A stretch of DNA of 44,845 nucleotides, taken from Candidatus Magasanikbacteria bacterium RIFCSPLOWO2_12_FULL_43_12 (GTDB lineage Bacteria > Patescibacteriota > Patescibacteriia > Magasanikbacterales > UBA922). The position numbers and the translations under genes were made by a program. The stretch spans positions 25,859-70,703 of the forward strand of contig MFQN01000033.1 of the NCBI GenBank assembly GCA_001783065.1, written 5' to 3'. Shown here piece by piece: positions 30,503 through 38,585 of this stretch. The notes beneath the pieces were generated by a model. That model searched no databases, was not told the DNA's origin, and saw only the letters and a program-made list of their open reading frames with translations. Every line of letters begins with the position of its first letter. Position 1 is the stretch's first letter.

Positions 30503-31231
30503 TTATTTTACCAACTCGTCTCTACCATCCGTCACCTGTCGGTTGTCAACTTTTTCATCCGACTCCAACAGCCCATCTTTAATCTTAATGATCCGTTCCG
30601 CGTGTTCGGCAGTATATTTTTCATGAGTAACCAAAATAATCGTATGGCCTTGTTTTAAATTTAAATCTTGCAAAATTTTCATTACTTGCAAACCTGATTT
30701 TGAGTCAAGATTGCCGGTTGGCTCATCCGCAAAAATAACCGACGGATTATTTATCAATGCGCGGGCGATGGCCACGCGTTGTTTCTCGCCGCCTGACAAT
30801 TGGTTTGATAAATTATTTATGCGATGACCCAGCCCTACAGATTCAATCGCTTCTTTGGCGCGATTAGTTCTTTCCGCGCCCGTTAATTTAACATACATCA
30901 GAGGCAACATCACATTATCAAGCACTGTGGTACGTGGCAGAAGATTGAACGCTTGAAAAACAAATCCGACTTTTTGGCTCCGCTTATTTGCCAACAAATC
31001 ATCATCAAGCTGACTGACATCTTGGCCTTCAAAAAAATATTTACCATCTGACAATTTATCTAAAAATCCAAGAATATGCATCAGGGTTGACTTGCCTGAT
31101 CCGGACGGCCCCATGATGGCGACAAATTCGCCTTGATGAATTTCAAAACTGACGCCATTCAAAACATGAGTAATAACGCCGTCATTGTCAAAATGTTTTT
31201 TTAAATTTTCTGTTTTAATTAAGGTGTTCAT
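30503..31231 (-). CDS. MacB/LolD-type ABC transporter ATP-binding protein
   Basis: 242 aa from the ATG at 31231 (MNTLIK); the upstream 19 in-frame codons run through the plus-strand RNA promoter and are unlikely. Walker [11 protein letters not shown]-loop 'VFQAFNLLP', signature LSGGEKQR, Walker B '[12 protein letters not shown]' and the H-loop 'ILVTHE' are all intact. The LolD/MacB-specific '[10 protein letters not shown]' is present. It energises the two permeases that follow. Confidence 0.95.
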
Positions 31232-31241
31232 ACGTGACCGC

Positions 31242-31270
31242 TTGCAAATTTTAAATTTTTGTGATATAAA
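31242..31270 (+). promoter_or_regulatory. Promoter of the 31277 RNA
   Basis: -35 TTGCAA (31242-31247), 17-bp spacer, -10 TATAAA (31265-31270), on the plus strand, divergent from the ABC ATPase gene. It predicts a start near 31277, just before a long stem. Confidence 0.6.
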
Positions 31271-31276
31271 TTCAAT

Positions 31277-31412
31277 CGTCCCGGTCAAGGGCAGTAGGTG
31301 TAGCTAGTGGGACCGAGTGAATCAATTCACCCGGGTAACACAACGGATTCCCGCAAGTTTCTTTTGTCACCACTCGCTACAGTGGAAAACGCCTCTCTTC
31401 CACCCCTTGGCC
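31277..31412 (+). ncRNA. Structured 5' domain preceding a tRNA-like gene
   Basis: A 9-bp stem GGTCAAGGG (31283-31291) / CCCTTGGCC (31404-31412), with one G-U pair, closes a domain with three internal hairpins: GTGAA/TTCAC (31317-31330), CGGG/CCCG (31332-31353) and CCACT/AGTGG (31370-31385). An alternative stem GTCCC (31278-31282) / GGGAC (31309-31313) competes with the closing stem. No protein frame is evident. It ends 4 nt before the tRNA-like structure. The family is unknown. Confidence 0.55.
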
Positions 31413-31416
31413 ATTT

Positions 31417-31506
31417 GCGGAAGTAGCTCAGTAGTAGAGCACCGAGCATGGGACTAAACACCCCAGCCAAACTCGGAGGCCGGAGGTTCAATTCCTCCTT
31501 TCCGCT
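31417..31506 (+). tRNA. tRNA-Gly-like gene with a 25-nt anticodon loop (intron or tRNA mimic)
   Basis: Acceptor GCGGAAG (31417-31423) / TTTCCGC (31499-31505), D-stem GCTC/GAGC, anticodon stem CCGAG/CTCGG (31442-31446, 31472-31476), 5-nt variable loop and T-arm GGAGG-TTCAATT-CCTCC (31482-31498) are all perfect. Acceptor start GCGG and U73 fit bacterial tRNA-Gly. The anticodon loop (31447-31471) has 25 nt instead of 7 and contains a TGGG/CCCA mini-stem, then GCCAAA. No way of excising a single block gives a 7-nt loop with U33. The D-loop reads AGTAGTA, lacking the usual GG. CCA is not encoded. It may be an intron-bearing tRNA, a decayed tRNA, or a tRNA mimic. Confidence 0.6.
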
Positions 31507-31523
31507 CCTCGCTCTTTCTTTTC

Positions 31524-31551
31524 GCCCGGACTTACACTCCGGGCTTCACTT
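31524..31551 (+). terminator. Hairpin after the tRNA-like gene
   Basis: The stem GCCCGG (31524-31529) / CCGGGC (31539-31544) is followed by TTCACTTTAT. The T-run is weak, so it is a possible terminator only. 31552-31646 is AT-rich with a TATCTCC microsatellite and no gene. Confidence 0.45.
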
Positions 31552-31646
31552 TATAAAAAATCGTCAATAATTTAGCAATCGTCAATAATATTCTTTAAAA
31601 TTTTGTTAATATTTCAATATCTCCTATCTCTATCTATCTCCAATTA

Positions 31647-33062
31647 TCAAATTTTCTCCCACTCCCCCGCCTTTTTTAAATACTCGTCTTTAATTCCTTC
31701 AAAATATTTCTTCGCCTCGTCATAATCATTTTTAATTTTTCCGTCTAAAATCGCCTCTTCAATTGCGTCTTTTATCTTGCCGATTGTCGGGCCGGGTTTT
31801 AAACCACAGACAGACATGATTTCCTCGCCTCTAACCGGTGACTGAAACGCGCGCAGTTTATCTGTTTCAATCACTTCCGTGATTCTTTTTTCCAAATAAT
31901 CATAATTTTTCAAACGTTTGTCTTTTTTGATTGGATTACCGGTGGTAATGTCAGAACGGCATAAAATCAATAAATCATTAAGCTCATCGCCAAGAGTAAC
32001 AATTAAACGCCTAATCGCGCTGTCAGTAATTTTTGCGTCCATCAAACCAATCGGCTGTTGATGCCAGCGCACTAACTTCGCGATGTATTTAGTGTCATCT
32101 GAACTGAAACGCAAACGCCGTCCGATGATATGAACAAATTTTTTACCCAAATGTTCGTGCATGTCAAATGTCCAGCCGCGGCCGCGAACAAATTTTTTGG
32201 TCACCGGCTTGCCAATGTCATGCAGTAATCCGGCCAAACGCAATGTTACTTTATCACTTTTTTCCGCGATATTATCCACCACCTTAAAAGTGTGTTCTAA
32301 CACATCTTTATGAATCTGACCAAAAACCTCATCCACGCCGTAAAGACTTTTTACTTCCGGTAAAAACATGCCAAACAAACCTGCATCGTAAAGAATACGC
32401 AAACCGATTGATGGTTTTTTTGTTGCCAGTAATTTGAAAAATTCTTCCTGTATCCGTTCGGCGGAAACAATCCGTAAACGTTTGCAATTCCGACTCATCG
32501 CCTCATATGTATTCGCCTCAATCATAAACCCGAGCTGGCTGGCAAACCGCGCCGCTCTTAACATACGCAAAGGGTCCTCGGAAAAAGTCGTGTCCGGATT
32601 GAGCGGAGTGCGGAGAATTTTGTTTTTCAAATCTTTTTCTCCGCCAAATGGGTCAACAATTGTTTTACTCAAACCGGACGCGATAACTTTCTGCGCCATC
32701 GCGTTAACCGTAAAATCCCGGCGCTGTAAATCTATTTCCAAATTTGTCGCGGAAACTTTAGGCTTGCGAGATGTTTCATTATAACTCTCTATCCTCGCTC
32801 CGGCAAATTCTAATTCTAAATTTGGCAACACATAACGCGCTGTGTCAAAATCTGGAAATTCAACCAAGCTCCCAGCTTGCTTCATCGCCTCATCAAATTT
32901 TTTAGCAAATTTTAACCCGCTGCCAATCACGACAAAATCAAGATCTTTGCTATTTTCAAAACCCAATAAACGATCACGGACAAAACCGCCGACCGCGTAC
33001 ACGTCAACTTTTTCTTTTTTCGTGATACTATAAATTATATTTAATATCTTTTTCAAATTCAT
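31647..33062 (-). CDS. cca: CCA tRNA nucleotidyltransferase with HD domain
   Basis: 471 aa from the ATG at 33062 (MNLKKI). The class II nucleotidyltransferase motif is 'YAVGGFVRDRLLG...KDLDFVVIG', followed by 'RRDFTVNAMA', 'DPLRMLRAARFASQLGF' (nucleotide selection helix) and an HD motif 'LAGLLHDIGKP' with a C-terminal hydrolase-like domain. It adds CCA to tRNA 3' ends, which matches the lack of encoded CCA in the two tRNA(-like) genes of this window. It lies between the MacA-like adaptor and the tRNA-like RNA, so the export genes are interrupted here. Confidence 0.93.
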   Translation of the reverse strand: MNLKKILNIIYSITKKEKVDVYAVGGFVRDRLLGFENSKDLDFVVIGSGLKFAKKFDEAMKQAGSLVEFPDFDTARYVLPNLELEFAGARIESYNETSRKPKVSATNLEIDLQRRDFTVNAMAQKVIASGLSKTIVDPFGGEKDLKNKILRTPLNPDTTFSEDPLRMLRAARFASQLGFMIEANTYEAMSRNCKRLRIVSAERIQEEFFKLLATKKPSIGLRILYDAGLFGMFLPEVKSLYGVDEVFGQIHKDVLEHTFKVVDNIAEKSDKVTLRLAGLLHDIGKPVTKKFVRGRGWTFDMHEHLGKKFVHIIGRRLRFSSDDTKYIAKLVRWHQQPIGLMDAKITDSAIRRLIVTLGDELNDLLILCRSDITTGNPIKKDKRLKNYDYLEKRITEVIETDKLRAFQSPVRGEEIMSVCGLKPGPTIGKIKDAIEEAILDGKIKNDYDEAKKYFEGIKDEYLKKAGEWEKI

Positions 33063-33072
33063 ATTTTTGTAC

Positions 33073-33092
33073 AGACGCATTGCAATGCGTCT
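33073..33092. repeat. 20-bp perfect palindrome, intergenic copy
   Basis: AGACGCATTGCAATGCGTCT, immediately after the adaptor gene stop, whose TAG is part of the flanking GTAGAGACGC word. A near-identical palindrome lies inside the adaptor gene at 33150-33169. Confidence 0.75.
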
Positions 33093-38389: not shown

Positions 38390-38585
38390 TAGTCCCGTCA
38401 GGGACTTTAGATAGTAGCCAGGCACTTTAGTGCCTGGAAAAACATTCAATAGAATTCAAAAGTCCCAGAGGGACGACACATCTGTCTTGTCTGCCGTCCC
38501 TACGGGACTTGTGTATTGAAATAATCATTTTCCCCAGGCCTTAAAAGGCCTGGCTACTATCAAACGCCCCTACGGGGCTAACAAT
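38390..38585. repeat. Cluster of REP-like palindromes
   Basis: Six small palindromes: AGTCCCGTCAGGGACT, CCAGGCACTTTAGTGCCTGG, AGTCCCAGAGGGAC, GTCCCTACGGGAC, CCAGGCCTTAAAAGGCCTGG and GCCCCTACGGGGC. The outer parts GATAGTAGCCAGGC and GCCTGGCTACTATC also pair with each other, making one composite inverted structure. There is no gene. Such arrays are often spread by REP-associated tyrosine transposases; none is in this window. Confidence 0.7.

Follow-up and report, generated by a model that had tools for sequence, protein, structure and literature searches.

In the 1.05-Mb genome of a Candidatus Magasanikbacteria organism (G000; 1,049,956 bases including the window, listed as 99.56% complete), the segment between an ABC-transporter ATPase gene and the gene of a presumed CCA-adding enzyme is best explained, with somewhat better than even confidence, as carrying a free-standing gene for a non-decoding RNA. 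This RNA would consist of a structured 5′ domain, 4 nt and a mimic derived from tRNA-Gly, and would be one occupant of a hypervariable slot. Coordinates given without a handle are positions in the window, the whole stretch of 44,845 nt of contig MFQN01000033.1 that was analyzed. The following features were located:

30503–31231, minus strand: gene of an ABC-transporter ATPase with a probable start codon ATG at 31231, divergent relative to the RNA (open reading frame, aligned in L011–L018)
31232–31645, no strand: inserted segment of about 410 bp with the RNA gene, absent in the same-genus genome G002
31242–31270, plus strand: predicted extended −10 promoter TTGCAA-17-TGA-TATAAA (read from the sequence)
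31283–31412, plus strand: 5′ structured domain with a 9-bp closing stem and two internal hairpin arms (MFE, shuffles)
31417–31506, plus strand: tRNA-Gly-like cloverleaf with U73 and no encoded CCA (RF00005, 55.9 bits)
31447–31471, plus strand: 25-nt anticodon loop with the mini-hairpin TGGG/CCCA at 31449–31465 (sequence, fold, excision listing)
31524–31544, plus strand: terminator-like hairpin of 7 bp, then TTCACTTTAT (terminator scan)
31559–31589, no strand: direct repeat, two copies of AATCGTCAATAAT (31559–31571 and 31577–31589)
31647–33080, minus strand: gene taken to encode the CCA-adding enzyme (tRNA nucleotidyltransferase), convergent with the RNA (open reading frame of 477 aa)

The promoter named in the original prediction (TTGCAA-17-TATAAA) could be read again from the sequence, with TTGCAA at 31242–31247, a 17-nt spacer and TATAAA at 31265–31270, and a TGA preceding the latter makes it an extended −10 promoter. 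The consensus promoter scanner did not list this site because it demands a T at position 6. Judged from these motifs, the RNA is probably transcribed from its own promoter and ends at its own terminator, the terminator-like site being GCCCGGA-N7-TCCGGGC followed by TTCACTTTAT. The domain of about 130 nt closed by a long-range 9-bp stem, likewise predicted before, was recovered: GGUCAAGGG (31283–31291) pairs with CCCUUGGCC (31404–31412), including one G-U pair. Its 130 nt fold at −47.0 kcal/mol compared to a mean of −35.7 kcal/mol for shuffled sequences (z −3.0), and none of 200 shuffles was as stable. For the entire RNA of 272 nt, a z of −3.2 was obtained, again with 0 of 200 shuffles. The G + C content is about 0.33 in the flanks and increases to 0.58 in the RNA gene.

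Starting 4 nt after this domain, the cloverleaf at 31417–31506 scores 55.9 bits against RF00005 (gathering score 29), and its four helices are all intact, with a T-loop of the type UUCRANN. ARAGORN misses this tRNA without the intron mode; with it, the tRNA is detected as ‘Pro tgg’, a meaningless assignment, and its insertion is given as 18 nt. Both the 18 extra nucleotides and the TGGG/CCCA mini-stem of the original prediction are borne out. The identity elements of a glycine acceptor are G1-C72, C2-G71, G3-C70 and U73. These are present in the window RNA (GCGGAAG...UUUCCGCU), whose acceptor (GCGGAAG...UUUCCGC-U73) is similar to the host's tRNA-Gly; among the host tRNAs, Gly-CCC gives the best alignment score.

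The other features of a functional elongator tRNA-Gly are missing, namely G18-G19 and an anticodon loop of 7 nt that contains U33 and a glycine anticodon. The anticodon loop (31447–31471) comprises 25 nt, CATGGGACTAAACACCCCAGCCAAA, in which TGGG (31449–31452) and CCCA (31462–31465) form the mini-stem. A full listing of all single-block excisions upheld the earlier statement that none leads to a 7-nt loop with U33, and the same holds for 8 nt. After excision of the 16-nt mini-hairpin GGGACUAAACACCCCA (31450–31465), CAUGCCAAA remains. U33-GCC-A37 appears in this 9-nt loop, its GCC being the one noted before and matching the Gly acceptor; with a C-A mismatch as the closing pair, the loop can also be viewed as the 7-nt AUGCCAA. 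The mini-hairpin helix has 4 bp and a 2/6 asymmetric internal loop, compared to the 3-nt bulges that flank the 4-bp helix of an archaeal-type bulge-helix-bulge. The D-loop, AGTAGTA, was correctly described as devoid of GG, having A18-G19 at this place. Since the genome's own tRNA-Cys also has no D-loop GG, its absence alone is not decisive.

The 48 RF00005 matches in the host genome were typed, and all amino acids are covered without the gene at 31417–31506. Among them are intact tRNAs Gly-GCC, Gly-UCC and Gly-CCC, so that the second tRNA-Gly(GCC) whose presence the original prediction left to be checked does exist and decoding does not depend on the copy in the window. When all 1,049,956 bases of the genome were scanned for a 7-bp acceptor with a T-arm stacked on it, requiring U54-U55-C56, this motif turned up 40 times. 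Outside of ARAGORN genes, it occurs only at 31417–31506 and in a tRNA fragment on the border of a repeated element; three more matches to a looser T-loop pattern are chance-like. The fragment (C2:9143–9278) was set aside. It lies at the edge of an inverted repeat of about 210 bp (L207:8940–9350 and G000:C2:4757–4966) that encloses about 4 kb and is bordered on one side by a tRNA 3′ fragment. This repeat recurs in pieces, often as inverted pairs, in many genomes of the order and probably represents a mobile element. Further observations in this genome are an odd tRNA with a short variable arm, the anticodon UGA and C37 (L079:101–176, G000:C18) and a match to the Acido-Lenti-1 RNA (RF01687, 40.1 bits) at 38534–38579 of the window. 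DNA similar to the latter lies upstream of the CCA-enzyme gene in L022.

The protein encoded at 31647–33080, assigned to the CCA-adding enzymes from general knowledge of the family, has relatives with 60–88% identity. In the same-genus genome G002 (L011/L094), the ATPase and CCA-enzyme genes abut without an insert, and the DNA around this point is 80–85% identical. An 8-bp duplication of CAAATTTT (31245–31252 and 31648–31655) is AT-rich and could be due to chance. No homologue of the window RNA was found in the family or order by DNA and covariance-model searches. In particular, the 5′ domain gave no homologue by blastn in 46 genomes, and a covariance-model search yielded none in 86 genomes of the order. 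Phage and plasmid records gave only short tRNA or AT-rich matches, and an exact pattern search of viral contigs gave no match. In the Rfam search of the locus, nothing but tRNA reached the gathering score, and hits below it were at chance level. No description of such an RNA was found in the literature on CPR tRNA introns or Patescibacteria tRNA-like ncRNAs.

The slot was defined as the region 3′ of the CCA-enzyme gene, and this flank was examined in 40 genomes of the family, in two of which a contig end cuts it off, and in 20 of the sister family. Structured RNAs were found in about 10 of the 39 readable family slots (G003, G007, G015, G017, G018, G020, G024, G025, G028 and G000), and no slot RNA lies directly at the slot in the 20 sister-family genomes. 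The slot RNAs are located on the strand opposite to, and convergent with, the CCA-enzyme gene, and several have clear TTGACA/TATAAT-type promoters and terminators. The window RNA shares this position and orientation and carries a T-arm/acceptor as well. Of all slot RNAs, it has the least conspicuous fold (z −2.6 to −3.2): in the same test, it reaches a z of −2.6 versus −4.1 to −9.1 in the other genomes. Strict T-arm-on-acceptor motifs occur in six slots including that of the window, all on the strand convergent with the enzyme gene, and none occurs in the flanking genes of the slot regions. At the strict rate, measured as background across G000 and loci near the CCA-enzyme gene only, about 0.02–0.03 odd matches would be expected in the approximately 16 kb of family slot sequence.

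Most occupants carry a tRNA-like element of aberrant form, and these elements differ in shape. The G024 slot holds a tRNA-like element without a D-arm and with a long hairpin, G017 and G015 have acceptor/T-arm minihelices, and the G007 RNA is class-II-like, its acceptor being long and its variable region comprising about 95 nt. In G015, a tRNA without U33 is located next to ordinary tRNAs, the odd tRNAs in G003 and G025 could be ordinary though odd ones, and the G020 occupant contains no tRNA-like element. As the sequence common to the slot RNAs is limited to T-arm and terminator pieces, they may be independent insertions. Taken together, the differently shaped tRNA-like RNAs of the relatives at one spot hint at an undescribed, fast-changing RNA class.

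Some slots hold additional elements. A tRNA-Pro, a tRNA without U33, a tRNA-Gly and an acceptor/T-arm minihelix are arranged on the minus strand of L013:6095–6588, in a slot that also includes a very stable region of 251 nt (z −5.5). In G018 (L112:1870–2500), a tRNA-like element precedes two structured RNAs, tandem paralogues that show compensatory changes and of which no further copy was found in 86 genomes of the order. The 3′ part of the L096 slot contains a short ORF (MGFFKRLFSG..., CxxC) with a promoter and a ribosome-binding site directly after the slot RNA terminator. Furthermore, a tRNA with a CUA anticodon (ARAGORN ‘Pyl’), a possible amber reader in a CPR genome, was detected in G060 (L154:879–953, reverse-complement coordinates).

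For the sibling pair G007 and G008, two sister species whose slot RNAs are 72% identical, 6 of 47 base pairs are compensatory, 4 are changed on one side and none is broken, and a slid-structure control gave 0 compensatory pairs. The G008 RNA occupies the corresponding position, at the end of a contig and upstream of the ATPase gene, and the contig with the G008 enzyme gene ends 5 bp past the gene match. This covariation is supportive, not conclusive, of selection on the structure, being one pair with the structure predicted on the same pair. The tandem G018 paralogues show 5 compensatory pairs. The covariation evidence covers these siblings and not the window RNA, as the latter has no homologue to compare.

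The interpretation as a non-decoding mimic is favored because a 55.9-bit cloverleaf cannot present its anticodon in a 7- or 8-nt loop, because the tRNA set is complete without it and the unit has a promoter, a terminator-like site and counterparts in the same slot, and because the genome scan leaves only this locus and one tRNA fragment outside of the ordinary tRNAs. It is weakened by the missing homologue of the window RNA, by the least exceptional fold and by the G020 occupant, which is free of tRNA-like elements. Two alternatives compete with it above all, a decayed tRNA copy and, at a much lower likelihood, a tiny hairpin intron. The former, a recent tRNA-Gly pseudogene that was duplicated or laterally acquired, gained a loop insertion and G18A and lies by chance beside an unrelated or non-functional GC-rich stretch, is rather improbable. 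It would agree with the functional Gly tRNAs elsewhere in the genome and with the window RNA not being conserved and missing in G002, and the small tRNA array with a degenerate member in the L013 slot would be a plausible source. All helices of the cloverleaf are intact, however, the loop insert is itself a hairpin, a promoter and a terminator flank the unit, and other slot occupants are strongly structured, one of them with covariation. The original prediction had named an intact tRNA-Gly(GCC) elsewhere and a non-conserved 5′ domain as refuting its own reading; both apply to the window RNA taken alone. The promoter, the terminator, the recurrence in the slot and the one covarying pair argue against mere decay.

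A tRNA-Gly(GCC) that is functional once some unknown bacterial splicing activity has removed a 16-nt hairpin intron, GGGACTAAACACCCCA, from between U33 and G34 is very doubtful. The U33-GCC-A37 left by its excision agrees with the Gly acceptor, but the resulting loop would comprise 9 nt or be closed by a C-A mismatch, the genome has an intact Gly-GCC, G18 is missing and no RtcB-like ligase turned up in a crude motif scan. Splicing of introns of this hairpin type is not known from bacteria, which also counts against it. A little is added in its favor by a tRNA-Tyr of another Magasanikbacterium (L027), where removal of a 47-nt two-hairpin insertion leads to a perfect 7-nt CUGUAAG loop. The tiny non-group-I intron offered by the original prediction thus retains the restored U33-GCC and this second insertion on its side and is weak overall. 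Quite unlikely, too, is cargo of a mobile element or phage that repeatedly inserts at the operon break, like the tRNA islands accompanying ROOL and GOLLD RNAs. The presence/absence pattern among the genomes, the insert of about 410 bp and the tRNA array in L013 would fit, whereas phage and plasmid matches are short tRNA or AT-rich pieces only, viral contigs gave none, the insert is single-copy without a transposase or long terminal repeats, and within one genus a slot RNA is kept in place.

Insertions in tRNA anticodon loops are also known from bacterial tRNAs with group I introns, and the host's tRNA-Tyr is interrupted by one (L093:1475–1765, G000:C1), the only RF00028 match of the genome. 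Unlike these, the insertion in the window has only 16–18 nt and is far too short; a group I intron at 31417–31506 is excluded by its size (18 nt versus a core of about 200 nt or more) and by the lack of an RF00028 match. The insertion in L027:396–525 (G033, PFLZ01000048.1) is not of the group I type, lies between G34 and U35 and is a candidate for a tiny bacterial tRNA intron; L026 and L028 have an uninterrupted tRNA-Tyr at the same place. In G011 (L053:1340–1920 and L092:2533–2943), a tRNA-Asn(GTT) gene is interrupted by a group I intron, and two copies of its 5′ half stand in tandem ahead of it.

Bacterial Y RNAs of the YrlA type, partners of Ro60, are ncRNAs in which a tRNA-like domain takes no part in decoding, and the proposed RNA resembles them in this respect. 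It differs by having no Rfam match besides tRNA and a host without Ro60: the TROVE/Ro60 protein (PF05731) is absent from the genome, and a Y RNA/Ro60 system was rejected. From the three options of the original prediction, the tRNA mimic fits best without the link to YrlA and Ro60, and a decayed tRNA fused to a new ncRNA may describe its origin. The mascRNA/menRNA family (RF01684) similarly has a 3′ tRNA-like module that tRNA enzymes release from a longer ncRNA, but it is eukaryotic, and the module in the window is a full four-arm cloverleaf; the slot RNA L108 scores 29.5 bits against RF01684, below the cut-off of 42.5. A tmRNA also joins a tRNA-like domain to other domains, whereas the window RNA has neither a tag frame nor a split acceptor, and the RF00023 match of the genome is a separate gene at C29. 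GOLLD and ROOL are large ornate RNAs located near tRNAs or containing them (PMC12286853). In contrast to the window RNA, which has no Rfam match besides tRNA, they are phage-borne and much larger.

If the window RNA is a non-decoding mimic, enzymes of tRNA maturation would likely recognize its acceptor/T-arm stack. RNase P would cut at G1 and separate the 130-nt domain from the mimic, and the CCA enzyme would complete the 3′ end, as CCA is not encoded by the gene. The enlarged anticodon loop would bar the RNA from translation, so that, instead of acting as an adaptor, it could offer tRNA-binding proteins a stable bait or scaffold. A more far-reaching proposal, which we consider unlikely, is that the slot produces fast-evolving tRNA-mimic regulatory RNAs tied to the adjacent CCA enzyme, e.g., CCA-tailed baits or sensors of tRNA-end repair, and that some enlarged loops may be tiny hairpin introns using an unknown bacterial splicing route.

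Bacterial tRNA mimics outside of translation are rare, and CPR genomes of 1 Mb should have little room for dispensable RNA. If the proposed explanation is true, a slot at a fixed chromosomal site that is refilled with variously built tRNA-like RNAs beside a tRNA-end enzyme would suggest either an RNA arms race or a role of tRNA mimicry that is as yet undescribed, and the CCA-enzyme slot provides a concrete, searchable locus for testing tRNA mimicry.
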